Shown here: one piece after another, positions 33,683-64,000 of the stretch
Numbering within the stretch: the first letter of the stretch is position 1
How the letters are laid out: every line of letters starts with the position of its first letter
Source of the DNA: Humulus lupulus
Taxonomy: Eukaryota > Streptophyta > Magnoliopsida > Rosales > Cannabaceae
Assembly: GCF_963169125.1 (NCBI RefSeq)
Contig: NC_084802.1
Span: forward strand, 30,571,107-30,635,106
Direction: 5' to 3'
Length of the DNA: 64,000 bases
Notes under the pieces: model-generated
Told to the model about the DNA's origin: nothing
Databases searched by the model: none
What the model saw: the letters and a program-made list of their open reading frames with translations, nothing else
Translations under genes and position numbers: made by a program

Positions 33683-34400
<718 letters not shown>

Positions 34401-39888: not shown

Positions 39889-42800
39889 TTAAAATTTGTG
39901 ATGAGCAGATGTGATTGGTAGTGGCTGAAATCCATGACGAAGAGTGGCTTCCCAAACTTTGTGAATATTGGCAATGTGAAAGCCACACTCATGCTCACTC
40001 CAGCCTTCTAAGCCATGTACTATTCCTGCTATACGCCATGCACTCATCACTCTTCTTGGCAACCAATTCTGTTCATAAATTCAACATTAATTTTTTCAGT
40101 TATATATATACATATATATAATGTAACAATTTTCATGCACTAACATAACATATATGTATAGTCAAATTAAATAAGATATATACCTCACATGAATGAAGAT
40201 TCTCAAGAGATGTAGGAGTGTGCATTGCTGGTGTGTAGTGGTAAAAGCAATCCTTGCGAAATGGGTGAGGTGGGAATTGCGTGAAGGGAATGAATATTGT
40301 TCCCTTTGGAGCTTTTACTTGTTCCTCTTTACTCACTCCATCTCCCACTAACCAAATCTATATATCATTCACTAATTCTTATTATTGACTATAACAACAA
40401 TTATTATTATTGATCATAAACTTCATTAATATTAATTACCTTTTGAGAGTAACTTTTCGAGAGCACCAAACAATTTTTAGTGGTGGAACTGGATATGTTG
40501 ATTAATGATTTCTTGAGTTTCTTGTACTCGTCATCCTTAGAAGAAGCTACCTGATCATAAAAATAAAAATATTATTATGCATATATATATATATATTACT
40601 ATACTTAAAATAAAATCTTTTTTGTATTGTTCATCCTTAGGGTTTTGGTTCCCACATTGATAGAGCAACAATCGTTGATTGAAGGTTTGTGAATTTGGGA
40701 TAGAGAAAATAGTGATGATTTGTTGTAGTTTAGAATATTTGATGAGTACTAGTAGTGGTGGCTAGAGTAATGATGGGTCATGATATTATAGTTGATGTTG
40801 TTGAATGGACAAGTGAAGAAATTTGGGTTTGGAGGAGTAAAGTTTATGTTTTAGAGAGTAGAGGATAGTAGAAAGTAGTAGAGTTTTATTGATGGTTTGT
40901 TGTTTCTGGTATACCATTTGCTAACCATAATGGGGTATTTATAATGGCTATCCTATATTTTATATTTGTGGCTAGAATTACTTGTTCTAGATCCTTTTTT
41001 TACTAGAATGAATATTAACCACACAAATTTTCTTGTTTCTCAAGCATAACTAGAATGTTCTAGACTTAAGTTTTCTAGAAATGCTTATAAGAAATTCTAG
41101 AGTAATTTAGTTCTACAAATATCTAGAAAATTATAGAGTAAAGTATTCTACAAATGTCTATCATATTCTAGAGTATTCAAGAAATGTGTAGCAACTTCTA
41201 ATACTCCTCCTTGGTACACATTTTAGTAACTCCAATCATGCCTCGTAGTAGCTCGAACTTTTCTCTTGGTAGTGCCTTTGTGAATATATATGCTAACTGT
41301 TCTTCAGTCCTGCAGTGCTTGAGTTCTATTTCTTTGTTTGTTTCAGCTTCTCTGATGAAATGATACTTGATGCTTATATGCTTCGTTCTGCTGCGAAATA
41401 CAAGATTTTTGGCCATTGCAATAGCTGATTTGCTATCGCAGTAGATCTTTGTAGCTTCATTTTGTGATTCTTCCATGTCTTCAAGTATTCTTTTCAGCCA
41501 TATAGCTTGGCTTATAGTCATTGCTGCAGCAATATACTCTGCTTCAGCTGATGATTGTGCAACTGTCGCTTGATTCTTTGATGCCCAGGAAAATATCCCT
41601 GATCCAATTGTGAAAGCATATCCTGATGTACTTTTCATGTCGTCAACCGATCCTGCCCAGTCACTATCTGTGTAGCCAATGAGTTTTGACTCTTGCGTGA
41701 CTCCATACCATATTCCGTAGTTCTTTGTCCCTTGCAAGTATCTAAGGACTCTCTTGGCTGCTCCGTAGTGAACTTGACTTAGACCGTGCATGAATCTTGA
41801 TAGGAAACTGACTGCATACATAATGTCTAGTCTTGTAGCTGTCAGATAGAGTAAGCTGCCAATTAAACTTCTAAACTTCGATTCATATGCTTTTGGTGAC
41901 CTGTCCTCTTTCTTGAGAGCTTTATTGTTGTCTAGTGGAGTTGATACTGTCTTACATCCCTCCATTTTGAACTTCTTCAATAGTGTCTTTGTATACTTCT
42001 TTTGTGAAATGAAGATCCCATCTTCTTTTTGAGTTATTTCAATCCCGAGAAAGTAGTGCATTAAGCCCAAATCAGTCATCTCGAAACTCTTCATCATGTC
42101 TTCTTTAAATTTCTTGATCATCTCCTTATTGTTGTCTGTATAGATGAGATCATCAACATATAGAGAGACAACAAGTGTATCACTCGTACCTTGAGTCTTG
42201 ATGTAGAGTGTTGGCTCACTTTTGCTCCTCCTGAATCCTTGTTCAGTGAAGTAGCTATCAATCCTGCTATACCAGGCTCTTGGAGCTTGCTTTAGGCCAT
42301 ATAAAGCCTTTTTTAACTTGAGAACTTTAGCTTCTTGTCCTTGCACCACGAACCCTTGGGGCTGCTCCACATAGATTTCTTCTTTGAGATAGCCGTTGAG
42401 AAATGCTGACTTCACGTCTAGTTGGAAAATCTTCCATTTCTTCTATGCAGCTAGAGCAATCAAAGCCCTGATTGTGTCGAGGCGTGCAACTGGAGCAAAT
42501 GTTTCATTGTAGTCAACTCCATGTTGTTGTGAGTATCCTTTAGCGACTAACCTTGCTTTATGCTTTTGAATCGAGTCGTCTGAGTTGAGCTTTGTCTTGT
42601 AAACTCACTTGACTCCTATAGTGTCTTTGTCTTGTGGACGATCTACAAGCTCCCAAGTCTCATTCTTCTCGATCACCTTTATCTCTTCGTTTATAGCTTT
42701 TCTCCATACTTCTTGCTTTTGAGCAGCTTCAAAGCTTTCTGGCTCCATAAGCATTAAGTTGCATGTCTCGTAGATCTCTGCTAATGATCTCGTTCGCAAT

Positions 42801-45800
42801 GGTGGTGAGTCTGGCGGGGATTCTATGACTTGTGTCGTTTCCTCCGTGGTTGGTTGAGTTGGAAAATCATTTTGATCAAGTTCTTGTCTCGACAATAGAG
42901 GAATGTTGACAATCTTTCTTTCAACTTCTTCTGTCTCCCAATTGTATGTTGCATCTTCGTCGAATTGTATGTCTCGGCTGATTATGAGCTTCTTCGTTCC
43001 TAAGCTATAGACTCAATAGCCTTTTGATTGAGTACTATAGCCTAAGAAAATTCCTTTCTCAGTTTTCTCATCTAGCTTGCCTCTTTTTTCTTTTGGAATG
43101 TGAGTGTAGCATATGCTGCCGAAGACCTTAAGATGCTTTGCTGATGGTTTCCGTCCACTCCAAGCTTCGATCGGGGTCTTATCTTGCACAACTTTGGTTG
43201 GACATTAGTTGAGCAAGTAGACTGCAGTGCTTACTGCCTCTGCCCAAAATCTTTTTGGAAGACCGTTCTCCATGAGCATAGCTCTTGCTATCTCCATAAC
43301 AGTTCTGTTTTTTCTTTCAGACACACCGTTTTGTTCTGGTGCGTATCCAACTGTGAGTTGATGCTCCATGCCTTCTTCTTCGCAGAACTTGTTGAACTCG
43401 TTAGAAGTGTATTATTTTCCTCTGTCACTTCTTATTGTCTTGATGTTACGACCACTTTGCTTTTTTGACACGGGTTTTGAATTTATTGTAAATATCGAAA
43501 ACTTGCGATTTTTGTCGCAAAAAATAAACCCATGTCATTCTAGTAAAGTCGCCGATAAAGAGAATGAAGTACCTGTTTTGATCATTTGATGCAGTACACA
43601 TAGGCCCGCAAACGTCTGTGTGGATTAACTCCAGTGGCTCTTTGGCTCTCCAAGCTTTGCCGGATGGAAAAGGTTGTCGATGTTGCTTGCCGAGCATGCA
43701 CCCTTCACATATTGTGTTGAGCTCCTTGATTGGTGGGAGGTCTCGCATCATATTCTTCTGCTGGAAGATCTTTAGCCCGTGGAAATTGAGATGTCCAAAC
43801 CTTCTATGCCATAGCCACGATTCATCTGCTTGCGCTTGCATTACGACATTGCTTGCGTATCTCCATTGTAAAGGAAAACATCTATTTTCTTTCATTTTTA
43901 TCTTTGCAATTTGAAAGGATTTATCTTGCTTGTCATAGATTGTGCAAGAATCTCCTTCAAAATGCAAAGAGTACCCTTTTTCAATCATTTGTCCTACACT
44001 GAGTAGGTTCTAATCGATGTTGGGTACTAAGAGTACATCATTGATGTATCTCTTGCCTTTTTTTGTGTCAATGGCAATGGTGCCTTTTCCAACTGCTTCC
44101 ATGAAGTCACCATTACCAATCTTGATTCTAGTCTTGGATTTATCAAGACTACAAAAGATGCTTTCATTTTTTGTCATGTGATTACTGCAACCACTATCAA
44201 TATTCCAAGTATCTTTTTCTTCTGATGCAACTTGGCAGACATAGAAGAGATTATTTTTATGATTTTTCTCTTCTAAAAAATTAGCTTGATGGGATTTCTT
44301 AAAACGACCAGTTTTTTCAGTGTGGCCAAATTTTTTACAATTTTGGCACTGAGGTTTTCCTTTAAATCAACAGTCTTTCTCCAAGTGACTTTTTCTTTTA
44401 CAGATGCCACATGGAGAATATTTGTCGTTATTTTCTTTTTGTTTTTCTTGATAACTCCTACTTTTAAAATTTCTAATGATTTTCTCCCATCAACTTTAGA
44501 TTTTTGAGACCGCGGATTAATTTTAGACTGAAAGACATTTTCAGTCGAATTTTCATTATGCCTTTCCCGCCTACTTTCGTATGCTTCGAGAGAGCCCATT
44601 AATTCAGTTGGTGATAGGGTATCTAAATCTTTTGTTTCTTCTATCACAGAGATTATTGCATCATATTTTTCTGTACAAGAAATTAGTATTTTTTCTACTA
44701 TTTTCTTGTAAAAAATTATTTCTCCATAGGCTCCCATTTTATTTACTATTTCTTTTATTCTAGAATAATAATCTTTTACAGTCTCATTATCCTTCATTTT
44801 AAGATTCTCAAAATCTTTTCTGAGCTTCTGTAGTTTAACCGTGCGTACCTTGACTGTTCCTTGGACTCCTCCTGCAACGTGTCCCATGCTTCTTTTGTAG
44901 TTGATGCGCCCATAATCCGTGGAAATATATCATCTGCCATAGCTTGCTGCAAGCAGAATAACGCTTGAGAATCTTTTTGTTGATTCTCCTCTAGGGCCTT
45001 CTTTTGATTTTCCGAGAGAGACGAAGTGTCTTTTGGAATAGTAAATCCAACCTCAAAAATTTTCCATAGATTTTGTGATCGAAAATAGGTCCTCATTTTG
45101 ATGGACCAAAAATCATAGTTTTCTCCATGAAAAATTGGAAGAGGTAGAGAAGAGCGGTTGGAATCGGTTGTCATGATGTGCGGAAAGTATTACGCCCAGT
45201 GTTTGAATCGACCTGGCTCTGGTACCATTGAAGGTTTGTGAATTTGGGATAGAGAAAATAGTGATGATTTGTTGTAGTTTAGAATATTTAGAGTAGTAGT
45301 AGTGGCTAGAGTAACGATGAGTTATGATATTATAGTTGATGTTGTTGAGTGGACAAGTGAATAAATTTGGGTTTCGAGGAGTAATGTTTATGTTTTAGAG
45401 AGTAGAGGATAGTAGAAAGTAGTAGAGAGATTTATTGATGGTTTGTTGTTTATGGTACACTATTTGCTAACCATGATGGGCTATTTATAGTGGCAAGCCT
45501 ACTTTACATTTGTGGCTAGAATTACTTGTTCTAGATCCTTCTTTTACTAGAAGGAATATTAACCACACAAATTTTCTTGTTTCTCAAGCATAACTAGAAT
45601 GTTCTAGACTTAAGTTTTCTAGAAATGCTTATAAGAAATTCTAGAGTAATCTAGTTCTACAAATATCTAGAAAATTACAGAGTAAAGTATTCTACAATTG
45701 TCTAGCATATTCTAGAGTATTCAAGGAATGTGTAGCAACTTGTAATATTGATCTACATCTTCACGCGACAAATACTTTTCATAACTATCTTTTTGATCTC

Positions 45801-47762
45801 TCTTTCGATTATTTCTCTTTGAACTTTGATTTTGTTGTTCTAATTCATGATTTGGTCATGGTTATCAGATATATATTTTAATATAGATTTTTGAAAACTA
45901 TATATTAATTTTAGTTTTTGAAAGCTTTCTTTAATATAGATTTGTTATTAGTTTTGTTAGTAAGAGCTATTTTTATTGTGAGAACCTATTGATAGATTGA
46001 TTTTCTTGAAATGCGTTGATGGTTATGTATTCTTGTCTCTCCTTGATATAGGTTGAGTTTTGCTGTATTTCTCAAAGATTTTTTTTTGAATGTGTGACAA
46101 TCTTTACTCTTTTTTCTTTTCAGTTAATTTCTCCTTTTGAACCGACTTGATCCTTGTTTTCAAGTCGATTCTGGTACGTAGTGTATGCTTATATCATGAC
46201 TTTATGTCAACACATATTATTATTTATATTTAAAAAATGTAATTTTATTACCTGGATACCCTTCTGGCATAGAGCTAAAGCAATGGCATAAGCAAACTTA
46301 GTAAGATTGCCAGTTAGCAAGACTTGGGTTGTTCCTATTGGTATGGAGTTTAGTACAACACCCACTGCTAGGCTACTGCCATCTACAACATTCACCTTCA
46401 ACTCAGGGTGTCTTTTCACGTAGACTTCACCATATGCATTCAACTCTTCCTTCTGCATGCATACATGAAAATTAATCATTTTTATATATTAAATATATTT
46501 CAATTAAGAGTTAATTAGGGCAATATACATGCCTGATTCAAGAGACCTAGACTCAATACTTTGACACCCTTCTCCTCAGCGTCAAGTATGGCTTTCTCAA
46601 TCAAATTGTTAATCGATGATTTTTGCCATTGTAGAAAATACTGAAGCAAATACATGCATACATAATGTTATAGTATATGCTAATTCTGTAATATTTGATC
46701 ATCATGATTAATTTATAAAAGTATGTAGTAGTATATGCATGCATACTTGTATCTTGTACTTTGGTATAGCCCAAGTTTGCAATGTGAGTTTATGGAAACG
46801 GTGGCTCTCAACCACGAAAGTTCGGCCATAAATCCCAGCCAATAGAGTAGACCAAGCAGTGAGAGGCCACATGAACCAAAGGTACCATTTTGATGAAGAG
46901 TGAGGCCTAGAGGCCAAAGCAGGAAACCCTATCTGCATATGGTATATGGATTCCGGTGTGGTCATATGCGTTAGATACACCACATTTGGTATTTCCTCCT
47001 TTCTTTTCAGTGACATTTCATACAAATATTCCGAAGATTCGTCCGCTGTTCCATAGATGTAATCATACATTGGCATGAACAAGCAATAATTGGTTCGAAA
47101 CTGAGTGTGGTGCAACGAATGAAACCTACAAAATATGTATATATGTATTAATGTTAAGATCTCAATACACATATAATTAAGATTACAAAGCTAGAGAGAG
47201 TTTATACGTACGAGGGGGTATATATAAGGTACTTGAGAGGGGGGAAGACATAGAAGAGCCACTTGGGAATCAGCTCGAAGTTGCAGTGACCCAAGTTATT
47301 CATGAAATCGATATAAACGATGTAACCTATTAACACAGCTATGGAGCGAGTATCGGTAAGTACTGATGTCAGTAATGGGATTGCAAAGAGAAGGAAATAT
47401 GCCACGTGCTCTGCAAATGGATGAGCCACAGCTGCAGTAATATACAAATATAATAATCAATTAATATAGTACGTACTCCAACTCAACTCTCATGGGTAAT
47501 ATACAAATATATATTTATATAGCTTACAAGTAATGGGCTCAGTAACAATTGAGGAATGGTGATGAGAATGATAACGAGAGTAGAGATAGCGGTGATGAAG
47601 AGCTCTGTGTAGCCAATAGTACAGAAATTCCACAGCACCAACATGAAGCAGAATCGTTATAATGACTCCATCTGTCCTCCATATAGGCACGTTCGTACAA
47701 TTTGGAAATATATGGGTTGCCAAGTAGAACAGTATTCCATTGAACAGTATTTGGTCATCCCT

Positions 47763-47793
<31 letters not shown>

Positions 47794-48405
47794 GGCAAAC
47801 GAATAAAATAAAATAAAAATAGACAATATAATATATATAAAATAATAAACATTTATTTATTATACCAATTTCTTTCTCTATCGACTTGATCAAACTCAAG
47901 ACTCTTGTCAACTATTCTGTTTTTCCCTTTGGCCAATCGGTAACGAGAAAGAGAGATCCAAATCTGGTTGTGAAGCATTCTTGACAACAAAAATGGAAAA
48001 ATGAGAAAAGTTGACAAGTCTCTCTCTCTTGGATCCTCCTTTGTTACATACATGTACGTGCTCCTAATCGCCCATGGCGCTAATATTAAATACTGCAAAA
48101 CGAAGAATATATATATATATATATATTATAGTATATGTGAAAGTTTCTTATTTGATAGCAAAGTTTTTTTATTTTATATATATAATCTTTACTATTTACA
48201 CATTATTAAATGTTATTATAATGCAAACCATGTAACTACTCGAAGTTAAATATCGTATATAGATATATAGATGAATAGTAGTGATCTGAGAAAGAGAGAG
48301 AAAGAGATGCACGAGAAATTTGATATAATGTTTCAGGAAAAGTACCTTAAGTTTTCCGAGAGGCTTCCATGGCCAATCAGTGAGGATTCCAGGCTTAGAA
48401 GCCAT
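39889..48405 (-). CDS. CER1: CER1-like very-long-chain aldehyde decarbonylase
   Basis: Needed for cuticular wax alkanes; an ER membrane protein of the fatty acid hydroxylase superfamily that works with CER3. Exons in transcript order: 48405-48346, 48092-47866, 47760-47528, 47431-47212, 47125-46747, 46640-46533, 46452-46252, 40550-40440, 40357-40184, 40068-39889. Total 1893 nt, 630 codons plus TAA, all in phase with no stop; Arabidopsis CER1 is of similar size. Start [17 protein letters not shown] is the family's. Diiron His clusters HRALHH and HSHHH (exon 3) and HSLHH (exon 5) are present. The C-terminal WAX2-type domain ends with [10 protein letters not shown]. Several hydrophobic spans are visible in exons 2-5. 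Intron 7 (46251-40551) contains a 5.07-kb copia element in the same direction; intron 6 uses a GC donor. Appears intact. Confidence 0.93.
40680..41203 (-). repeat. copia 3' LTR
   Basis: On the + strand runs TGAAGGTTTGTG to CTTCTAATA. Matches 45229-45747 along its whole length. Confidence 0.9.
41198..45174 (-). pseudogene. copia gag-pol polyprotein, decayed
   Basis: Gag starts [20 protein letters not shown] at 45174. A frameshift near 44850 moves it to the frame ending at 44273. GAG pre-integrase and integrase start lie at 43988-43446 ([13 protein letters not shown], then HTDVCGPM). The integrase core follows in broken frames ([15 protein letters not shown], about 43355-43310). Reverse transcriptase and RNase H lie at 42895-41198, with YVDDLIYT and [12 protein letters not shown]. 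Stops near 42601 (TGG to TGA) and 42435 (CAG to TAG), and a one-base shift near 43465, disable it. The final frame ends inside the 3' LTR. The visible nonsense changes are C-to-T or G-to-A. Confidence 0.88.
45229..45747 (-). repeat. copia 5' LTR
   Basis: On the + strand runs TGAAGGTTTGTG to CTTGTAATA. The primer-binding site lies just left of it (45228 downward). Confidence 0.9.
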
Positions 48406-48910
48406 GTCCACTATTGGTACAGTGCTATAGCTTGTACAATAATAAGCAATCTTGTTCGAGAAATGTATACATGCATGCGTATATATAAAAAGAGTATGCT
48501 ATAAGCACATGTCAATTTGAAAAATTCTTATCTCACTCAAACTCATCAATTATAAATTAATATATAACATTTTCATATTGAATTAACATATCAAATAGTA
48601 TCCAATAGAAAAAACATAAATTAAGGAAACAAACCCAACAAACCTAAAGAAGAATTATCGGATTAGTACCCTTGTTTTTGGGTGGTACTTATTGCATGAT
48701 AGAGGTCACCTACTTAGCACTCACCTTATTTTTTTGCCTGAGATTATCTGACCAAATTAAGTGCACAAATTTACTATATATCTTAACTGTTCCAGTATTG
48801 ATCAACCAATTTCACTTCATGTAATTGTTGTGAATAACTAACACACACACACACACACACATATATATATCCTTAATTAATAAGAAGTGGCTACTTTAGA
48901 TAAATTAATG

Positions 48911-49258
48911 CACTACAAATAAAAGTAACCTTTAGTGACAACTTTTTAGTCACAACATATATTTTGTGTGACTAAATGCCACTTTTAGTAACAACAAAAA
49001 ATTACTTGTGACTAAAAAGTCATACTTAATCACAAATTGTCACTAATGTAGTTTTAGTCACAACCTATTATTTTTAGTGATAAAGTTTGTTGTGACTAAA
49101 AATACATTTAGTGACAACAAATTGTGATCTTTGTGACTAATACTTTTAGCCACGGACTTTTTAGTGATAACATAGGTATAATGATTTTTCTTTAGTCACA
49201 AATTTTTTGTTTTTAGTCACAAAATTTGTTGTGACTAAAACTAAGAATTTTTGTAGTG
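48911..49258. mobile_element. Non-autonomous CACTA MITE, 348 bp
   Basis: Ends are CACTACAAATAAAAGT and, on the right, TTTTTGTAGTG. Flanked by the 3-bp duplication ATG (48908-48910 and 49259-49261). The interior is filled with subterminal repeats of the form TTAGTCACAA / TTGTGACTAA in both directions. It lies about 500 bp upstream of the CER1 start codon. Confidence 0.9.
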
Positions 49259-49261
49259 ATG

Positions 49262-49954
49262 TACCACTTTACGCTTGATCCCATTTGTCATTATTATTAT
49301 TAGTAGTCGACCATGTTGGTGATATTTTGGCTACATATATTAATATTCAGTATTCTATATATATAAATGGTTATTTGTTAGGTTACTTATATTTTGAGAA
49401 ATATGACTATGATTTTGTTATATTATTTTATAATATGATATTTAGATTAAATAATGTGACAATGAGTATCATATATTGTAACATATAAAAGAGAGTTACA
49501 ATATTTGGATATATGTGAATATTCAAATATATAACATATCTGGCATTACAAATTCAGTTACAAATTTGTAACTCTAAAATGTTACTTAATAATGTGCAGA
49601 TTTGATGTTATACATTTTGATTTGAATTTCTCAAAGCCATAAGAGATATGGTTGTTAGAGATGTGATTTTAACTCCCATAATGTGTATGGAAGTTACAAA
49701 ATCAAGTGGGAATGAATTTGGAATGCTTTGGAAAAGTTTGGAAAATTGGTAGCTGAAAAAGCACTGTGGCAGCGGCCAATGTTTGTCCCAGGCCGTGGCT
49801 TGGGGGACAGAAGCCAGTGGCCGTGACCAGAGAGGCTGACAACCTTTTCCAAAAATCGATTTTATCCAATTTTGAACGTTTCCAACAACCAAGTAACTCT
49901 CAAATCTCTATTTTAATTCCATAAAATATCAAATTAAACATTGGTAACAACCAT
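49262..49954. other. Spacer with possible LTR-derived text
   Basis: The GC-richer stretch at 49745-49850 (GGCAGCGGCCAATGTTTGTC) resembles LTR or transposon sequence but has no visible ends. No gene. Confidence 0.35.
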
Positions 49955-50460
49955 CATTACAAGAAAATATGCTTTTAATAACACCAAAAATGTGTTATCA
50001 AAACATACCATAACACTTTTTGATGTGTTAAGACCGACTATGTTATCGTAGGTCAGGGTACTTTACATATCACTTTATCATTGTTATACATATGTGTTAT
50101 TATACTGTCAGCGATAACACACTTTCTGTGTTATTTTAATAAATAGATAAGTGTTTAATTATATTATTTATAGTCGATTATATAACACATTTCAATACTT
50201 ATAAATTTGTGTTATACTACACTTTAGTATAACACATTTTTTGTGTTATACTACACTTTAGTATAACACATTATTTGTGTTATATAATGAAGTTTGCATA
50301 ACAAAATTCTTTACTTATAAAAAGTGTTATTGTAATAGATATTATAACACATTTTTCGTATTATTTTAATATTTAGATAAGTTTAAATTCTCATTATATA
50401 TTCATTTATATAACACTAATTTATTCTATTATATTTTTATTTTTTTTATATAATTAAAAT
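49955..50460. mobile_element. CACTA-type terminus with subterminal repeats
   Basis: Starts CATTACAAGAAAATATGC, one base from the usual CACTACAAGAAA terminus, and is preceded by CAT. The next 400 bp are crowded with ATAACACA / TGTGTTAT in both orientations, the normal subterminal design of CACTA elements. No matching opposite end (TTCTTGTAGTG) was found inside the window. Confidence 0.65.
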
Positions 50461-50625
50461 TAACTTTCTAATATATACTAGCATCATCAAATGAACTTGA
50501 TTTTCAAATAACAAATAGTAAAAACATTCAACATTATATTAACAATCCACAAATTAGTTTAAAACATTCAACACTGCCATCAACAACAAAATGTTCTTAA
50601 AGTATTCAAGTAGTCTTAAATATTC
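50461..50625. other. Junction between CACTA terminus and captured DNA
   Basis: Contains two copies of AAACATTCAACA-type words. Homology to the permease fragment begins at about 50626. Confidence 0.4.
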
Positions 50626-51661
50626 AACATATAAGCCTTGAATGATGATTTCGGTAAGTCCAGCACAGGGTAGTAAAGGAATGTGAAGTGAGGATTATAG
50701 CAAGGACAAATCAAGATACTGAGAAGTAAAAGAATGCAGTGTAGACAACCAAGTGAGGAACCCCATCTTTCAATGTATGCCATTGATCATTTGTTCCCAA
50801 GTTGAATGCTGGTGAGAATAGAGAAAAGCAAACACCAGCAAAGAAACATATGGACAGTCCAATGAGAGTGCTTTTCCCAAACACCTGTAGCAAGAGTTAT
50901 AATTATTAAATGTGATAGAGAATCTGAGATGTTTGGATTTGAATGTCAGGTGATGAACGTCCAAATATTTTTGTGTAGTATTTTTGCAACACAAGATTAT
51001 CACTTTTCATCTAAATGTGAGAATTTTAATTGATTTTCCATACTAAAAATTATTGTCTTTTACAGTGCCATCTATAATGGTACAGCTAGTTTTATGCTCA
51101 TTCTCATTATCCTTAAGTGCACCATCAAACAAAACAATTAAGTAAAAATTGCATCACTCAACAAGCTCGATGATTTAGTTTTAAAAATGAATAAAAACAA
51201 GATAATTCTTTGATAACCTTAACATTTAATGAATGAAACATACCCCTCTTTAGATGAAAAACCTTCAAGCTTTTCTTTATTATCAGCTGCATTAGATGAG
51301 TGGACAGTAGAAGCAAGGCAAACTGCAACCAAGAAGCAGCCAACACCAGGGAAAAGGATCTCGGCTCTATTAATTCTATTGTCTAAAAAGTAATTCGAGG
51401 TTGTTCCTGTCACCATTAAAGATCGCAACAGAAGCAAAAAATTCAGTATCTACAAGAGCAACACAGACAAATATCAACATTTAGAAATGGTCAGAGAGAG
51501 AGAGAGAATGAAAGAAAGGACCTATGACAACTGTTATGCTTGTAGTGATCACTTCTATGATTGATAAGCCAACAAAAGCCCAAGCACACTGAGTTGAGAG
51601 ATTTCCAAGGCTAAGTACCACCCCTCCTGCCATTGCAACCATCACAGAAGGCCAATTATCC
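50626..51661 (-). pseudogene. Ureide permease fragment (three exons)
   Basis: Ureide permeases are plant membrane carriers for allantoin and uracil. Here only a middle part exists. Exon 51661-51520 encodes DNWPSVMVAMAGGVVLSLGN and ITTSITVVIG. Exon ~51412-51245 encodes YFLDNRINRAEILFPGVGCF. Exon 50885 to ~50626 encodes VFGKSTLIGLSICFFAG and DGVPHLVVYTAFFYFSVS, where a TGA replaces the expected Cys codon. A one-base shift follows before DLPKSSFKAYM. The first exons and all C-terminal membrane segments are missing. Introns are kept, so it came from genomic DNA, not a retrotransposed mRNA. Confidence 0.85.
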
Positions 51662-51719
51662 TGCACCAATCACCCTAACATGAATCGAAACCAAATACAT
51701 ACAATACAATACAACTCCA

Positions 51720-52095
51720 TTATGGCAAACAGATGAAATTTTCATTATGCTGTGTTCCTTATCACTGGTCTCTCCAAATAGCACCACATTTATCAAAGAG
51801 AATAGAGAATGAATGAAATAAACTTTATCTAAATATATGCAAGTGTTGAATATTTGTGATTCAACACTTGTAATGAGCTAAAAAATATAATCAATACTGA
51901 ATTAATCATGAGAAGGAGCAGCCAAAAGAATTATATAAAAAAAGAAGAGGAAAAACAAAAAAGAATGGATTCTAGACATGTCTCATAATAATTGGACCTT
52001 TTTATTAAACTTCATGGAGACAAGACTGTCACAATAAAATTGTCTAGCAATATTTTTATGGCAAACAGATGAAATTTTCATTATGCTGTGTTCCT
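51720..52095. repeat. 40-bp perfect direct repeat flanking 296 bp
   Basis: TTATGGCAAACAGATGAAAT and the next 20 bases occur at 51720-51759 and again at 52056-52095 with no difference. Far too long for a target duplication; more like a repair or template-switch footprint. Confidence 0.9.
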
Positions 52096-53758
52096 GCAGA
52101 AGGTTGATGACTGATGAGGCTATATTATCCCATATATTTTTTTTTTCTTTCATTGCTATAGTTTAATCCCTCAAATGCTACCAACTTTTTTCATTATGTA
52201 CTTGTACTAATCATATTTCTTGGAAGTATTTTGCTGAACATAAGCATCTTAATCTTTTAATTCATGATCAAAATCATAATCAAAGTGTCCAACTAAGATA
52301 CATGTAATAATCATGATCAAATTATATTCCCATTTATAACACAGTCACAAGAAGAATATAAGAAAAGCACACCCACAAGTCAATGTGGAGCAAATAAGTC
52401 AAAGGAACACAGTCACAAACACTTGATACTATATTGAGGATTAACACACAAACAAAAAGATTTGAATGCTTAGTTAATCATTTAATTGTAAACAAAGAAA
52501 AAAAAAAGACTTATTCCACATACGGTCATGTGTATAAGGAAAATTATTCAAGTGAAATCAAGAAACTCACCCAAATCATGAGATCATACATAAGCATACA
52601 AACAACAAATATAAAACATAGAAAGATTTTTTAAACTAATTCATATTACTCCATACTACTACAGTCCATATAAATTACAAAATTATACGGTATAACCTTG
52701 CATAAATTTCCCACTGTCTCATTTAGGATGGAGATCTTCTTGCAATGGTAGTAGATGGAGAGTTTCTAGCAGGTATTGCTGCAGAACCCAATGACTCTAT
52801 AAAAAAAAATCAGTGTGTATAAAAAGATTAGCATATTTGATATAAGAAATAGAGTAAATGATAAATACCCATAAGGTCCTTGGACTAGGCCAAGTGAGCC
52901 CAACCTCCATTGTTAAACAACCAAGCTCCATGAAAATAAAAAATAAAAATCCCATGTCCTAAGATCTAAATGGGTAATGTTGTAAATATGTAAAAAGGAT
53001 AAGTTAAACAAAAAAAATACACATCTAATCAACACTTAAATTGATAACTCCAACAAACATTCAGGAAAAAAAGAAGAAGAAAGCAGAAATTGCTGCCAAA
53101 TTCAATTAAAAAACAGTATCTTATTTTTTAATAAACTATTTTCAATCAATATATGTATATATTTAAATATATGTGTGAGTGTGTAAGCTTGAAATATAAT
53201 TATATATGTGGTGGAGAGCTCTCAAGAGCCATCCACCATAAAGATAACATGAATAGAATTCTTAAATGTTGTTAAAAAATTGTACTATTGAAGAACCCAC
53301 CGTGTCACATGAAATATAAATCAGTTTCACAGTCATTAGGAGAAAAGTATCCAGTACATATTTAAAAGAAAAAAACATCACTTAAATGATAAAAATAAAT
53401 ATGACAAGGGAAAGGGTGATTACTATTTTCATCACTGAAACATGATTCTTAAGCTATTTCTTAATAGTTCTCCTACTTGTTTTAGACAAACGTATCACAT
53501 AGTTTCACATCCATCAAAAAGCAACCACCAAATAATTTTTTCATAAAAAAAAGGATCATTCAAGCAAAAAAGTAACAGATTGAAGTCATATAAAGGATAA
53601 AGTACATTAATAAAACCAGAGTTTGCAAGCAGAAGCAACTAATGTCAAATGCAAACTAAAATCTTTGAATAGACTCCCAATCTTCAAAACTTAGTATCAT
53701 CGCTACCCTTTAAATAAGCATGGAAATGAGTAGAATTTCTGGTACAATAATAACTTAC
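52096..53758. other. Non-coding filler between gene fragments
   Basis: Mostly AT-rich. One possible terminal exon is on the minus strand at 52796-52723: acceptor TATAGAG, then SLGSAAIPARNSPSTTIARR and a TAA. Its parent gene was not recognised. Otherwise nothing to name. Confidence 0.3.
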
Positions 53759-54762
53759 TCGGAAAATAGCAGCAGACCTTGACAGAAATGGCAGATGTTC
53801 TGGATATCGACTTTTTCCACTTAAAATTCGCCATTGAATATCATCCTCTGCTCCATCAATAAACAATCCTTTATCTCCATGCTTCTTAAGTATGATATGT
53901 GATAATGAAGCTGGAACAATCTTGGGTCCAAGTGATACCGAATTTTGTAGAGCTATATGAATCCTACTGCAGTCATCACAGCAAAACCACTTGTCTTTTG
54001 GGAGTTCCTGCAGTTAGATACACAAAACATAGTAAGAAGATACCAAAATTTAATATAGAGATCCATATATACAAAATAAGTAGCACAAAATCTAATCTAA
54101 CATCTCTAACTTACTTTTAAATCGCACAGTCCACTTCTACGCAAGCAGCCAACATGAAATTCCTTCTCACACTGAAACATAAGAGAACATTACTATCTTG
54201 CAAAGAAAAATAACAAGACAATGTAAGCATATATAATAAAGAAGACAACACAAAATCCATACTTGGTCACACAGCATGACAGTTCGCTCATCAAATTTAG
54301 CTGAACTGAAATCGTGGGCCCTAACAAGTCAAAAGAAATCATTAATAACTTAGCAAGAACAATCAATAAAAAATTACACGCAGTCACACAGCATAGCAGA
54401 AAGTGGGGAAAAAAAGGCATTCACAATATATAGGCAAATTCAAATCCTCTGTGCTATAAATATCTCAGTCAATCATTATTTTGAGCATTATACCAAAAGC
54501 TTCAAAATGTAACTTCCAATAATTTGTTTTTCAGAATATAGACAACTTGTCCTTTTTTTCACCTAAAATCATTATAAAATTCAAGGTCAAACAAAAAAAG
54601 TAGAGCAACTGACCTGCACACAACGCAACCACCAATTTCAATTTCAGGTGCCTTAACGACTCATGTCCACCTGATTACTATTGGTCTTGAAATGCTGGAC
54701 GGTTCTCCAGCAGCTGTCTTCCTACCAGAATCACACTTATCTCTACAATTTGGACAATACCA
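53759..54762 (-). pseudogene. PHD-finger acetyltransferase-like (IDM1 type) fragment
   Basis: Exons 54762-54614, 54320-54263, 54171-54115 and 54007-53759 join in frame. They encode the end of a first PHD finger (YCPNCRDKCDSG), then a second, extended PHD region: GGCVVCR, FDERTVMLCDQ, CEKEFHVGCLRRSGLCDLK and ELPKDKWFCCDDCSRIH. The linker ends at SGKSRYPEHLPFLSRSAAIF. In intact family members a GNAT acetyltransferase domain follows; it is absent here. A TGA in the first exon stands where relatives have Arg (CGA to TGA fits). The family reads histone marks and acetylates histones in the nucleus; this copy cannot. Confidence 0.85.
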
Positions 54763-54787
54763 ATTGGTCTTGAAATGCTGGACGGTT
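54680..54787. repeat. 25-bp direct repeat at the fragment edge
   Basis: ATTGGTCTTGAAATGCTGGA plus CGGTT occurs at 54680-54704 and at 54763-54787. The first copy is inside the PHD exon; the second sits where PHD homology stops. Confidence 0.85.
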
Positions 54788-54789
54788 GG

Positions 54790-55378
54790 CCAGAAGAGAG
54801 AGCTGGGAAGAGAAGGCAACAACAAAGAACGAGAGAGAAAGAATAGGTAGGAAGATTTGGAGAGAGATGCATGAGAGGAGGGTCGTATAGAGAACAGGGA
54901 GCTGTGCAGATGGTGATAGATGGAGAGATGGAGGAAAGAGGAGCTAGGATAAAGAGTGTTTAGCGAAAGAAAAGAAAGAGAAAAAAAATTGAGATATTAG
55001 GGAAATTTGGGAAAGTAAAAACACAGTTTTAATTTGTAGCTGAAAATTTTATATAGCTGAAAACAGGATGGTAAGGACTCCATGCAAGAAACAAAATGTG
55101 TTGCTGCTATTAGAAGCAATCAAAAGGGGGTGACAAATATAATTTTAAAAAATTAATAAAAATGGAGTACTGAGAGCTTAATGAGAACTTGTATATGAGA
55201 AAGGACTAAAGATTAAGCAATAGAATTCAATAAAAAGAAAGTGAGATAAAAATAAAATAAGAGTGTACATGCTTTAAATTCATCCTTAAAATACTCACTA
55301 GTAGCATCAAAGAAATAAAAGTTAATTAAATCTCGGTACTTCAAAAAGTAACAGATAAGTTTCTTAGTATGAAAGTAC
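54790..55378. other. Spacer between PHD and CCCH fragments
   Basis: Purine-rich near 54830-55000 (GAGAGAAAGAATAGG-type text). No recognisable exon. Confidence 0.4.
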
Positions 55379-57040
55379 CTGATACCCATTCCACTCTGGA
55401 TTTTCTGAAGGAACCCCTTAAGTTGGGGAAAGCATCATTGGCATAAAGGGAGCAATCTCATTCAAAGATCTTGGTGAAGACCAAGATGGTAGAGTTGATT
55501 GTCATGCACCTTGTAAAGAGACAGGTCTACCATTACCATATCCTGCAGAAGTGCCACTTCCTGCCGCATCTGTTGGATCAGGATGATTAAACCTGCAGTT
55601 TCCTCCATACTTACAGGAGCCAGTTCGCATGTAATATGGACATTCTTTCTCACCCTGCGATATAAACCACATAAGATGACCACAAGCAACTATTGCAGCT
55701 TTTATATGTTGAAAGGTTAAAATATAGACAGAACAATGATGTTATACCACTTGGATTGGAAGACCAACAAAGTTAAACTCTAGAACTGGTGCTAATGGTG
55801 CTGCAGAAGTCTTTCCTCTAGTGTGGTTATATTTACGCGCTTTTCCAAATTTACATCCCCCTGACCTCAAATAATACTGCAAGAAGCTCAAGATTTTATA
55901 GCACCATAAATCTATTATTATTCCAAAAGACACATTGCAGTCAAATATGTGGTATTAAAAGAGAGTAAAAAAATCTCCTGAAATCTTATAATATATAACT
56001 TTTAACATTCAAATAATCAGAATGAATCAAATGAAAAAAATTCACAAAACAAGAGAAAAAGATCAAATTATAATATCTAGAATTGTTCTAATTATAAAAA
56101 CCTTACTTTTTGACTGCCTTTCTCCATGCCAAGAGCAAACAATACAGCAAAACGAGTGTCTCTAATGTTATCCATAGCCAGCAAAATTCCCCCAACAAAA
56201 CCCACCAACCATAACACAACCCAACAAAGAAGTACATCATATATATAGATACAAATATCGGAAAAGGTAAAAGAAAAAAAGACACTACATAGATAAAGAC
56301 CCACAAAGATAAAGACAACGCATACACAAACAGCTTCATTTTGTGGTGAAGTATTGATATAAAATTATATGGGTAAGAATTGAAGAATTAGAAGAAAAAG
56401 AAGAAAAAAAAAATACCTGATTGCTTCTTTTTCTAACTGGGTGATTAAACTTGCAATTGGATCCAAACTTCCACGTTCCAGTCTTGAGGTAAAATGAGCA
56501 ATCTTCAGCTTCAGGCCTCACTGGATACTGATACTTTCGAATACCACCACCATGCCCGTTCTTCTTATCCATCTCACTGCTACCATTATTTACTTCACTG
56601 CCATTTTCAATCTCATTTCCACTCTTATTCTCTCCCACTCCACCATCTTCATCATCGTTCTCTTCTACTTCTCTCTTCCTATCCTCATCATCATCATCAT
56701 CATCATCCTCATCCTCATTTTCATTCTCGTTCTCACTCCCATTCCCATACCCATACCCATACCCATACCCATCCTCATTCACATTCTCATTTCCATCATC
56801 ACTTCCATTCCGTCTCCCCATTTCTTCTCCACTCAAATCCCTGTCAACAACCTTTTGCTCATCCTTCGCTTCTTCGTTTTCTTCTTCTTTTTCTTCTTTC
56901 TTCTCCTCCAAATCCGATTTCAGAACCGACTCTTCCTCACTCTCTTTCAATTCCAAACTCGCAAGCTCATGATGAATAAAAGCTCCGCTTACCTCCTCTT
57001 ACTTCTCCTTCTCGACCACCCCATGAGCTTAAGCTAATCG
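55379..57040 (-). pseudogene. CCCH zinc-finger protein fragment (C3H43/C3H67-like)
   Basis: Exon ~57040-56417 has an acidic N-terminal region (Asp/Glu-rich, with a GYGYGYGYG run) and the first finger, [20 protein letters not shown], in which Trp replaces the second Cys ligand. Exon 55876-55748 has YYLRSGGCKFGKARKYNH, with Arg for the third Cys. Exon 55654-55379 has a complete finger ([20 protein letters not shown]) and then TGA and TAA stops. The small exon with the start of finger 2 was not found, and the C-terminus is gone. A stop near 57000 lies upstream of the acidic region. Relatives are RNA-binding nuclear or cytoplasmic proteins; this copy is dead. Confidence 0.85.
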
Positions 57041-57109
57041 AACCAAACAAAATGAGAATAATAATAAATAAAGAAAGGTGATAAATAAGCTAAGAGTGAA
57101 AGAACTGAC

Positions 57110-57154
57110 CGTAAGGGCCTCCCTCATGGCGATCGGAGTGTTGGCTGCTGCCAT
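57110..57154 (-). pseudogene. Clathrin heavy chain exon 1 fragment
   Basis: Reads MAAANTPIAMREALT from ATG 57154 and stops at a GTCAGT donor at 57109, exactly where plant clathrin heavy chain exon 1 ends. No later clathrin exon is present; the next coding text downstream is the CCCH fragment. The ~150 bp upstream (57155-57305) may be the clathrin 5' UTR and promoter. It could provide a start codon and promoter for a chimeric transcript through the array. Confidence 0.7.
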
Positions 57155-57305
57155 GGTTGCTCAGATTGTATGAGTTGAACAATTTTTGCCTTGGAAACAC
57201 AGTCGATGATGGTAGGCGATAGAAAATTGTTTAGAGTTTTGGAAATAAAAAAGTAGAGGCAAATGAAAAAGTAAAAAGTAGAAGATAACTTTACTAATAC
57301 GCGGG

Positions 57306-57397
57306 GCTCCAAAATTTGTTACCGCCAATTTTTTTTCCCACCTATTATTTTATTATTTGATGTATCATAATACTTTTTCAATACTATTATATTCATA
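57306..57397. other. Junction between fragment array and copia element
   Basis: AT-rich, with no CACTA terminus and no coding sequence. The right end of the putative capturing element is therefore unseen. Confidence 0.35.
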
Positions 57398-57644
57398 TGT
57401 TATGGAAAGGGGTATTTGGTGTAGTGCATGGAGGTTGGTGAAATTTGAAATTCAAAGGGTATCTCAAACTCTATAAATAGGAGTCTAATGCTCACTTGTA
57501 AGACACAACAATTTTTATCCACTAGAGCACTTGGCTAGAAATTCACCATAGAGGCTTGTTTATTCCAAAAAACTATTTCTTTTATAAGAGTTCCCTTAGT
57601 GCTTCAGATAGGGGGAAATAAGCTTTTGGACAAAGGTTGTAAAC

Positions 57645-58017
57645 TGTAACGCCCTACGTCACTATGACTGCTTCTTGGAATGACGACTGGCCCTACAAAC
57701 CAACACAAGTCTTTCCAGCATGCTTTGTCCTCACTCGCACGCTTCCTGGGAAAACTTCCCAGGAGGTCACCCATCTTGAGATTACTCCAGATCAAGCACG
57801 CTTAACTTTGGAGCTCTCAAGTGCTGGGCTACCGAAAGAAGCTGCATCTTGTTGATATAGGTAGTACCCATCAATCAATTTAAGTCCTCTTCAACTGTGT
57901 AGTCACATACGTACACAGTCTCAGAATCATCACACTTGACCTTCCCCAGGTGATGTGGGATTGCACAGCTTTTACCCGATCTTTCCCTCTGCGGATCACG
58001 GGATTCTGACTGTCACA
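57645..58017 (-). mobile_element. Cassandra TRIM solo LTR, 373 bp
   Basis: Flanked by the 5-bp duplication TAAAC (57640-57644 and 58018-58022). Ends TGTAACGCCC and CTGTCACA. Minus-strand sequence at 57818-57752 matches the 5S rRNA internal promoter region: GTTAAGCGTGCTTG, GATGGGTGACCTCCTGGGAA. Cassandra is the known LTR family whose LTRs contain 5S-derived sequence. Removing it rejoins the copia LTR. Strand is given by the 5S direction. Confidence 0.85.
57752..57818 (-). ncRNA. 5S rRNA-derived segment within Cassandra LTR
   Basis: Retains the box A/C-like part of 5S (GTTAAGCGTGCTTG; GATGGGTGACC). The 5' part of 5S is strongly changed, so it is not a functional 5S gene. Confidence 0.75.
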
Positions 58018-59814: not shown

Positions 59815-59820
59815 CACTAA

Positions 59821-60062
59821 AGGTTTTTTAGGACTATCATTGCGAGTCCTAAAAAAGTTTTTAGGACTCGCGGGGTGCGAGTTTTTAGGACTCGCAACAC
59901 GAGTCCTAAAAAATCTGGTTGAGTGCCTTTAATTAAGCTTTTAGGTTAAGTGCCTTTAAGTAATTTTTTAGCGAGTCCTAAAAAAATGTTTTTAGGACTT
60001 GTAACACAAGTCCTAAAAAATCGGGTTAAGTGCCTTTAAGTAATTTTTTAGAACTCGCTTTG
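59821..60062. repeat. CACTA subterminal repeats
   Basis: Six or more copies of the 14-base word TTTTTAGGACTCGC or its reverse, some as face-to-face pairs. Separated by GTGCCTTTAA(G/T)TAA-type spacers that also repeat three times. Confidence 0.85.
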
Positions 60063-60469
60063 CATGCCCTTAAAAGTAATTTTTTTTTAAAAAAAAAAAT
60101 GCAGCTACAATTTTCATTTTGATTTAAAAATATATATCTCTTTGAGTGTCGAAAATGTATTAAAAGAAATTTGAAAAGAAAATACTAAAAAAACAGCAAA
60201 AAATTTTTGTGAAAGAAATTTAAAATTTCTAAACATGTATTGTAATTAGCTAGCTATAACATCATTCATTTTGCTCTAACCAATTGTAAAAATGACATCG
60301 CCCATTCTTCTCGAACTTCGTCAATTTCTTGAGTAGTATATGGTTTGTTGGAGGTGAACTGAAAAAAAAAGAAACAAAACTTTAATTAGAATTATATTAG
60401 TGGTAATAAATTCAAAGCATATACAAAAATTATACTAGATTAATATTATGTAGTTGTATATTGTTTGTT

Positions 60470-63343
60470 ACCTGTTTTGACAAGAAATGTTTGATATGAG
60501 GGGCATTGATAAGTACATTCTTCATCATCCTCATAACGTAATATCCGTAGTCGATATTGTTTGGTTGTTTACGACACTATATTAAGATTGATAATACATG
60601 TACAATTCTTAGTATTAAATATCTTAAACATCTTTACATATACATAAACTATACAAATAGAAACATACCGTAGGTTGGAAATACATTACTCCCGATGAGC
60701 GTTTATTGATCTTTTGATGTGCTTTCATTCTTTCTGTGAAATACATCTCAAATGCATCATAGATGGTCTCCTTGATGGCTGTCCTGTTATCTAATGGTGC
60801 ATTGAGAGGATCGAGAAAACAAAAATAATGCCAATTGGGATATAATAAAAATAACATCCAATACTCCCTGTTGAAAGAATAAGTATTACAAAGTTGTTAA
60901 CTTTAAATTCTATTTGTTTGTATCAATGAAAAGTATATTAATTAAACTTACCCATGGTTATAAGGCATAACTATCCAATCATGCTTTTTAGACGTGCAAT
61001 ATAACATCCTATCACATAAAGCTTGAGCATGACTATATGCATGAGTCACGGAAGTAGAAACCTTATTCGGATTCATAAACAACAACGATCCTCTCTTTTC
61101 CTCGTCTAATAATAGTGTCTGGTACAAAATCCTACCAATAAATATAATTAATTAAAAGAAAACTAAATAGTTGATGAAATAAAATCCTCACAATAAATAT
61201 TATTAACTTCATATAGAGCATACCTCATGTAGAAGACAATACATGATTGTCCAATCATCTCATTTCTACAAAATTCAAGTATTTCATCCCGAAATAGAGC
61301 AAAGTATTCACAAGCATGACCAAACACATCAAAGTCAATGGACACTTCAACGACATAATCATGTTTAGGCCAATCATTGACGATTTCATATACTTGTCTT
61401 AACTTAGGCGACAATGGAGATGGTTGTTGCACCTCTTGTGACAATGACTCCTTAGGGGCTCGTTTTGGAACTAGTTTTTGAGTTTGTTGTGCTAATGGTA
61501 GAGAAGTTTTTTTTCCAGCTTGCTTTCCTTTTTTTTTCACGACCTCCTAATAAACCCATAACAAATAATTAATAATGGAATAAGTAAATAAAATTTAATA
61601 GTCTTAAAAGAATTACCTGTGTCGCTCCATTGAAGATGACTAGCGACTTGGGGCAATGTATCAAACTCCCAATAGCTTGTTTGACTGTATAAATCTCACT
61701 GTTAGGGATCGGGTTAACAAGTAGAGCATCAGGTTGGTCAGCAAACTCAATTGCACTGCGGTGTTTTTCTCCATGGATGTCTAAGCTACTAGTAACTAGA
61801 ATGTATCTCCTACCAACGATGTTGGTGATAGAGCCTAATGCAAATTTGCATTCAATCATTTTATCCTGCACATATTTAGATATGTATAAATATGTTATAC
61901 AAGTTCACAAATTTAGATTTTAAAAAGATAAAGCTATAGCTGATTTGAGCCAGGAGTGGGGATAAACATAGGTGCCTCTTCTGGTTGTGGGGGCGGTGGT
62001 GCTAGAGGTTGATGCTGCGATTTCGGTGATGCCTGATGAGATGGTGTCACCTGATCTATGGGTGATCCATAGTTTGGCACTAACGCATGAGAAGATCCTC
62101 CAAGCCACTATGTTGTCCTTTCATCTTTTCCATAAATTGTCGCATCATTTCCTCTTGTCTTTTGATCATTTCCTGTTGTTGTTTCATTATTTCTTCTCGT
62201 TGACGGTTTTTTTTCTTCCATCATTGCAAATCGAGCCTCAACTGAGGAAGCCTCAAATTCTTTTCCCTTTTTCTTACTAGATAGTGGGGTTTTCCAGAAT
62301 TGGCTAGGCGTTACACCGAGCCCAATACCCCTCACTCGCCCTCTGTTCTCAGGGGTGTCTAATGCCTTAGTAAGCACATCCTTAGACCCATCAGGTTCAA
62401 ATTTTCCATCACTCATGAGCTTAGTATAGTACTCCTGCAAACAAAATATAGAAATATAGTTATTCTCATTAAAAATAAGTAATCCAACCATATAAAATGT
62501 AGTGCACTTAATATGTTGCGAGCTACGCTTGTTGCCTCGGTACCAACCGGCTCACCCTTTTTGTTAGAATGTCCCACCAACCACAACTGTGACCTGTCGA
62601 TTTCAGACACCTCGAGTCCAAAATTTTGTTGTTGCAGCCTTTCCAGTGCCAACAAATACCCACCTCGTGACATATGATGGTCGTGTTTGTTTTTTTTTCG
62701 ACGATCTTGATGTATTTTTCTTCCAATCATCAGTCATGCGCGAAACACAGAACTCATCCCATTCTGTTTTAGTGATCAACTGTGAGTAACCTCTTGGCAT
62801 TTTGAACGTTTTGATGGTCGGATTTGCATCAAGCACATCATAGATGCATACCTTAGTCAGATAGGATTTGAATGATCTCCATCGTTTTGTCGCCCTTGAC
62901 ATAATTTTTCTTTTTGCTTTATAGTCTATGTCAATTGTAGCCTACAATTGAAAATAATACATATCGTTAGTCTACATTAAAAATACAAACAACACATATT
63001 ATAGTGATAGAGAAAATACCTTAATGATTTCCCAAAAATTTTCTTTGTCTGATTTAGGGACTTTATCCCAACTCGCGTGTGTGATTGAAGCACACCTCTT
63101 TATAGTTGATCCGATCATTGATCATAATTTTGATCTCATTGTACCGATCACTTGTCCATATTCATTGAACTTGATCAGTACCTTAACACCTTCACTTCGC
63201 ATCTTGGCTATGTTGGGCATGGTACATAGTCCCCTAATATATCTCACATGCACTATAGCATTATCATCATTCTCCTCTTGACCAACATTATTTTCAAGTC
63301 CTGGAAGTGGACAATCATCATCAAAACCTCCTGGATCAGCCAT
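60470..63343 (-). pseudogene. CACTA TNP1-like gene with Transposase_24 and Ulp1-like protease parts
   Basis: Starts MADPGGFDDDCPLPGLEN at 63343. A TGA near 63120 breaks exon 1. Exon ~62940-62510 carries the plant Transposase_24 pattern (KTEWDEFCVSRMTDDWKK, then SRGGYLLALERL), with a frameshift in the A/T run near 62690. A Gln/Arg-rich region with ATIYGKDERTT follows (62491-62108). Then comes a domain with EFADQPDALLVNPIPNSEIY (61871-61620), a basic tail, and a Ulp1-type cysteine protease end (NWHYFCFLDPLNAPL; IDYGYYVMRMMKN, ending 60472). The protease His and Cys positions read Tyr. Roles in CACTA transposition: TNP1 binds the subterminal repeats; the Ulp1 part is of unknown role. Confidence 0.78.
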
Positions 63344-63423
63344 GGAAATATCTGAAAAGGAAACGATCCAACCTTTAGAAGAAAAAAAAAACAAGTCAAC
63401 ATTTATCATAGTATATGATCAAC
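63344..63423. other. Spacer between TNP2 and TNP1-like genes
   Basis: 80 bp, too short for a separate promoter of normal size. The two genes may be one alternatively processed transcript, as in En/Spm. Confidence 0.35.
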
Positions 63424-64000
63424 CTATACACCGTCACCATCAAAACGCAAATAAACATCATCGTCATCTACACCATCATCAATAGGGTATTCGGTAAGCT
63501 GTGGTTCGGGAATTGTGACAGGTTGTTGAAGGAGTGGTAAGTCATGTACATCATTCTCTCTGTCTCCCCAATCTATCAGTTGAGTAGGAACCACGACTGA
63601 CCTTTGCTTGTCTGATGGATCATTCACATAAAAAAACTAGTTTGGCTTGTGTTGCCATTATGAAACGGTCATTTTTGTGCCCAATTCGATTTAAATCAAT
63701 TGATGTAAAACCTAAATCATCAACCTTTACTCCCTTGTCACTTTTCACCCAATCACATAAGAAGACTGACACTCTAGTTGTAGTATAATCTAATTCCCAA
63801 ATTTCTTGGATTACTCCATAAAATGTCATATCACACTCTACATGATTTTTGTCCTTTGAACTAGAGATTTGCACAGTTTTTGCTACAATAAAAACTCCAC
63901 TATTCTGTGTGGTTCTTACATTATCTCGTTCCAAAGTATTGAATTGAGCACTGTTGATGATGTATGATGGGTACTTAAACACATTCAAAGAAGGACCACG
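63424..64000 (-). pseudogene. CACTA TNP2 transposase, C-terminal region (DUF4216)
   Basis: Partial at the window edge. Contains DMTFYGVIQEIWELDY, FLCDWVKSDKGVKVDDLGF and SIDLNRIGHKNDRFIMATQA, the DUF4216 signature of plant TNP2 proteins. A one-base frame change near 63630 leads to MNDPSDKQRSVVVPTQLIDW and a Asp-rich tail ending at 63424. The catalytic domain (to the right) is not in the window. Confidence 0.85.

Follow-up and report, generated by a model that had tools for sequence, protein, structure and literature searches.

We found that positions 49955-57426 of a 64,000-nucleotide window of the hop genome (Humulus lupulus, NCBI RefSeq assembly GCF_963169125.1, contig NC_084802.1, positions 30,571,107 to 30,635,106) are probably a 7,472-bp non-autonomous DNA transposon of the CACTA (En/Spm) group that carries captured host gene pieces, a Pack-CACTA element. 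Read 5' to 3' on the minus strand, the array contains clathrin heavy chain exon 1 followed by pieces of a CCCH zinc-finger gene, a PHD/GNAT gene and a ureide permease gene, all of them intron-bearing partial copies. The best explanation is that nearly the whole interior between the two ends was swapped for pieces picked up from four or more host genes. Five features of Pack-CACTA elements were found, and the subterminal repeats were seen as the exact motif at the left end only. The array is probably a new example and not a new kind of element, gene-carrying CACTA transposons having been described in soybean, morning glory, maize and Arabidopsis. Among the papers listed in our searches of the open-access literature, we saw no report of a comparable hop element.

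Captured gene pieces and their damage

Exons were placed by splice signals and then compared with protein families and related proteins. The tested exon borders have AG before or GT after them (at permease exon 2 the 3' border is shifted by 1 base). Every gene piece is without part of its parent, and together they hold five premature stops and one frameshift; judged by their sequence, the parental proteins cannot be made from them. The original prediction of four truncated, intron-keeping host-gene fragments on the minus strand was borne out for all four, with families and splice borders checked. It had also taken the common orientation as an argument against random debris. Four pieces fall on the same strand in 1 of 8 cases by chance, so that the shared direction is weak evidence by itself. 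No protein combining the domains of two captured families appeared among the best 120 of 470, 120 of 482 and 120 of 992 matches.

For the IDM1-like PHD/GNAT piece, the exons (about 54765-54614, 54320-54263, 54171-54115 and 54007-53759) correspond to residues 599-770 of the 904 in hop protein P0001 (LOC133831774). The copy is close to this protein: only 3 of 171 residues differ, one of them being the single stop, at parental R633, and the piece has the hop residue at 11/11 sites where the hop and Cannabis proteins differ. Its PHD match in Pfam fell just below the cut-off (22.6 vs 24 bits). Comparison of P0001 with solved structures located no more than a PHD finger, at about residues 561-607, and the captured piece begins within that finger. 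Beyond residue 770 of P0001 no counterpart was found with sensitive tblastn.

The permease piece matches Pfam PF07168 (E 5e-80), and its exons (51660-51522, 51406-51245 and 50884-50630) cover residues 80-308 of hop protein P0254; the parental exon for about residues 181-222 was not found by sensitive tblastn. It carries a stop at C280 and a frameshift around residue 288. Against P0254, 13 of 184 residues differ, and at the 7 sites among these 184 where the hop and Cannabis relatives differ, the piece agrees with hop at 5 and with Cannabis at 2. The origin of this copy thus seems less certain than that of the PHD copy, and it could be older, less constrained or derived from a parent outside our list.

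The CCCH piece (PF00642, E 5e-20) has exons at about 57028-56417, 55876-55748 and 55654-55379. One of its stops lies just past the start of the piece (AHGVVEKEK*EEVSG) and the other two at R198 and Q226 of the Cannabis entry P0122. A finger cysteine has become arginine (C255R vs P0121). Another finger position shows C201W, which we did not count as damage because the Cannabis entry likewise has W near the same place. P0122 is an odd gene model, and therefore the differences from it are not all damage. The top matches came from Parasponia and Cannabis, and a hop parent was absent from the best 120 of 482 matches, drawn from a candidate set limited to 7985. A sensitive tblastn search for parental exons missing from the permease, PHD and CCCH pieces, or adjoining them, turned up nothing convincing beyond the ends described above.

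Clathrin exon 1 (57154-57110) reads MAAANTPIAMREALT, compared with MAAANAPIAMREALT of maize ZmCHC2 (PMC3742294). After 81 bp, its presumed intron runs directly into the middle of a CCCH exon (AHGVVEKEK homology, 57028-57002). Separately, the minus strand at about 52800-52726 has a terminal-exon-like stretch, with an acceptor, residues ending TIARRSPS and a stop, which might be a fifth captured piece.

The reading frame of clathrin exon 1 fits that of CCCH exon 2, and a splice past the remnant of CCCH exon 1 would give 108 residues and then a stop. From the sequence, clathrin exon 1 could possibly head a chimeric transcript. A working exon trap would ask for much more: an active clathrin promoter, exon 1 spliced in frame to CCCH exon 2, a short new protein of 108 residues that retains a single intact CCCH finger, and sister copies in hop that carry different cargo. 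We consider this very unlikely. The element is most likely a defective cargo-bearing transposon with no effect on the plant. No transposase domain was detected at E 0.1 in 10/10 open reading frames (ORFs) of at least 90 aa listed inside the element, and mobility would need a transposase supplied by a relative.

Table 1. Features of the putative Pack-CACTA element, with positions counted from the first nucleotide of the window
Feature	Position	Strand	Remarks
Left target site duplication copy	49952..49954		CAT, 3 bp
Left terminal inverted repeat	49955..49983	+	CATTACAAGAAAATATGCTTTTAATAACA; one base off CACTA
Subterminal region	49955..50430		15 GTGTTAT/ATAACAC motifs, of 20 sites in the window; read by analogy as the element 3' end
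Stretch between subterminal repeats and first gene piece	50431..50629		Unassigned; by inspection
Ureide permease (UPS1-like) piece	50630..51660	-	Three exons, introns kept; one exon of the parent not found; one stop, one frameshift
Exact 40-bp direct duplication	51720..52095		Copies at 51720-51759 and 52056-52095, immediately upstream of the permease piece
IDM1-like PHD/GNAT piece	53759..54765	-	Four exons with introns; one stop
Doubled PHD exon stretch	54680..54796		Two copies separated by 83 bp, alike over 34 bp at 91 percent (25 bp exact); located at the piece's 5' breakpoint
CCCH zinc-finger (C3H43/C3H67-like) piece	55379..57028	-	Three exons, introns kept; three stops in frame
Clathrin heavy chain exon 1 and presumed intron 1	57029..57154	-	Exon 57154-57110 plus 81 bp; intron assignment inferred
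Presumed 5' untranslated region and promoter	57155..57397	-	Upstream of the clathrin start codon; by position only
Right terminal inverted repeat	57398..57426	-	CACTACACCAAATACCCCTTTCCATAACA read inward; CACTACA end
Right target site duplication copy	57427..57429		CAT; matches the left copy

Ends of the element and its target site

At the left end, CATTACAAGAAAA has one mismatch to the CACTACAAGAAAA type, a match expected 0.33 times per window and not significant alone. Behind it, GTGTTAT/ATAACAC motifs occur 15 times in 476 bp, a density never approached in 60 simulated windows or 2000 local simulations (at most 3). We accepted 49955 as a terminus because this dense subterminal block stands behind the weak end match, in agreement with the CACTA-like end with subterminal repeats predicted at this position.

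For the right end, the original prediction had closed the feature at 57154 and placed the terminus beyond a nested copia/CACTA block, if it existed at all. We found a candidate closer, so the element would extend to about 57426; the CACTA block invoked there starts at 59815 and has other repeats (AGGACTCG). The two ends lie in inverted orientation with CAT on the outer side of each, which gives a 3-bp target site duplication. To the right of the left end, a 13-bp terminus with at most 3 mismatches occurs at 11 places, and only the one at 57426 is followed by CAT. Over 29 bp this site also shares 19 bases with the left end; of the roughly 13,500 positions to the right that could serve as right end, none does better, and one, 57410, equals it but has GGT behind it. 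A match as good and followed by CAT arose in 2/300 simulated regions, and in 0/300 when CANTACA was required too. These results lend modest support to the right end and its duplication, and we regard 57426 as likely to be genuine. The predicted Pack-CACTA nature of the array is thus supported, now with a second terminus and a matching 3-bp duplication, and the right terminus need not lie where it was predicted. Two other right borders were discarded: a TATGCTTGTAGTG match at 51535, which falls within the coding sequence of the permease and has ATC behind it, and the start of a supposed copia long terminal repeat (LTR) near 57398, superseded by the CAT at 57427.

Insertion into older DNA would have made the CAT duplication, and the site before insertion would read ...AACAACCAT joined to GGAGGTTGG... 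with one CAT. The flanks 49259-49954 and 57430-57644 may be the halves of one interrupted copia LTR, with a TATA box, and with gag to the right. The right flank contains a TATA-like CTATAAATAG near 57473, and a gag-containing ORF runs rightward from 58406.

Several observations weigh against a single element with these ends. The left end is CATTA (CATTACA) and not CACTA, and the terminal inverted repeats (TIRs) agree in only 19/29 bases. By 29-bp identity alone, three other places in the window score 20. If only the 13 outermost bases of the left end as it stands are compared, 57426 (9/13) is equalled by 52262 among the 340 sites that CAT follows. Both the 29-bp length and the requirement for CANTACA were picked after the site was seen; under the prior 13-bp rule, with its 11 candidates, the chance of a CAT match is 0.17 (equal bases) to 0.28 (local CAT frequency). 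The two end regions do not align significantly (local score 38; null distribution with mean 31.6, standard deviation 6.1, maximum 51). The joined flanks match nothing else in the window.

Toward the right end, no exact GTGTTAT/ATAACAC site occurs after 56211. There is precedent for strong border asymmetry and imperfect TIRs in soybean Tgmt*, which has 4 repeats in 159 bp at one border and 24 in 732 bp at the 3' border, imperfect 13-bp TIRs and a 3-bp duplication (PMC2613891). Because the long repeat block is at the 3' border of Tgmt*, the hop element would by analogy run from a 5' end at 57426 to a 3' end at 49955, so that the pieces would all be in sense.

Origin of the array and rival explanations

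Since introns are kept, the pieces derive from DNA. The pieces were most likely captured during DNA repair in which synthesis switched between templates at short homologies, a mechanism that we favour for the inner junctions because introns are kept and an exon stretch is doubled at a breakpoint. At that breakpoint, the join to the parental frame reads KTNWYCPN vs QNNWYCPN in the parent protein. The doubled PHD exon stretch and the 40-bp duplication look like the products of repair synthesis that released and re-annealed. Published Pack-TIR gap-filling and FoSTeST models propose template switching at microhomology between element and filler (PMC8277862). They are alike in the template switching, but they were described in animals and left plant Pack-MULEs open, whereas the hop element is in a plant. 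For plant Pack elements, tandem insertion and re-mobilisation have been proposed (PMC8903248).

Among known elements, the closest is soybean Tgm-Express1, a 5.7-kb CACTA transposon assembled from exon and intron fragments that stem from five host genes unrelated to one another (PMC1947982). It differs in host and genes, and cassette-exon splicing of its pieces has been demonstrated, whereas in the hop element such splicing is a possibility. In Japanese morning glory, the Tpn1 family consists of non-autonomous CACTA elements that average 7,081 bp and almost always show 3-bp duplications (PMC5105172); there too, captured genic sequence has replaced the internal part, and 339 copies are catalogued, compared with the one examined in hop. 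Pack-CACTA elements of Arabidopsis, rice and maize also combine a TIR element with captured coding DNA; these were annotated as copy clusters (PMC8903248), and in hop one copy was examined.

The left end could instead be a solo CACTA remnant at 49955, with the gene pieces forming an unrelated patchwork left by repeated double-strand-break repair and the CAT at 57427 being coincidental. Break repair can yield template-switch-like junctions and short duplications without any transposon, and such a patchwork would suit the low TIR identity and a right-end test that was partly defined post hoc. We nevertheless find it unlikely, given that the end sequence, orientation, duplication and flank order all fit a single element, and that an equally good match with CAT came up so rarely in simulation. 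Gene pieces carried by Helitrons are often co-directional and keep their introns. The content and common direction of the array would fit a Helitron with several gene pieces, and by eye CTAG followed by T is seen near 50479 on the minus strand. However, CACTA-type ends are present instead, and under a simple rule of our own, run with no positive control, no perfect 6-8 bp hairpin with CTRR and T was found on either strand of 49855-57526. A Helitron is thus highly improbable.

Despite the single strand and the retained introns, which are also what four decayed neighbouring genes would show, decayed synteny is hardly credible. The original prediction had named adjacent parents as the finding that would undo it, and the hop parents of the PHD and permease pieces lie on separate contigs, of 251,527,947 bp (P0001) and 289,954,511 bp (P0254 and the related P0260). 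The simplest reading is that these are two chromosomes, the alternative being two assemblies. In Cannabis, the contigs that hold the two G4B88 relatives measure 2.29 and 4.04 Mb, and neither the exon stretch doubled at a breakpoint nor a presumed clathrin intron that enters the middle of a CCCH exon fits genes that merely decayed in place. A Pack-MULE or a retrotransposed chimera, two types that also carry host gene pieces, is just as hard to credit: no 16-base exact inverted pair exists in 49900-57400, inverted blastn matches are confined to the left subterminal block, and processed copies are excluded because introns are retained.

If the ends of the proposed Pack-CACTA element hold, sister copies can be searched for with its sequence. 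Its breakpoints, with a doubled exon stretch and short shared sequence at a join, would then offer a concrete case for asking whether template switching builds multi-gene Pack elements in plants. For annotation, gene models within this stretch would be false.

Neighbouring features

To the right, 59815-64000 holds a second CACTA element of another family, which starts CACTAAAGG..., carries the AGGACTCG repeats and lies inside copia coding sequence, with its other end outside the window. One minus-strand ORF there matches Transposase_24 weakly (E 0.085, short of the cut-off). Between the two CACTA elements, 57645-58017 is a 373-bp solo-LTR-like sequence with TAAAC on both sides and a 5S-rRNA-like part at 57740-57842 (E 0.13; 21.3 bits, family cut-off 38). 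It resembles the solo LTR of a Cassandra terminal-repeat retrotransposon in miniature.

To the left, a small element at 48911-49258, bounded by CACTACAAATAAA...TTTTTGTAGTG and flanked by ATG at either end, reads like a CACTA-type miniature inverted-repeat transposable element whose inner repeats are unlike those of the main element. The stretch 40678-48498 holds a minus-strand CER1-like wax gene (FA_hydroxylase and CER1-like_C matches, both sub-threshold), and 3' of this gene a copia element with an RVT_2 match and LTR-like repeats 4.5 kb apart. Finally, 33684-34337 is a CAG/CTG array with 109 copies of the 6-bp unit CAGCAG at 95 percent; at about 650 bp, it is long for a plant triplet repeat.

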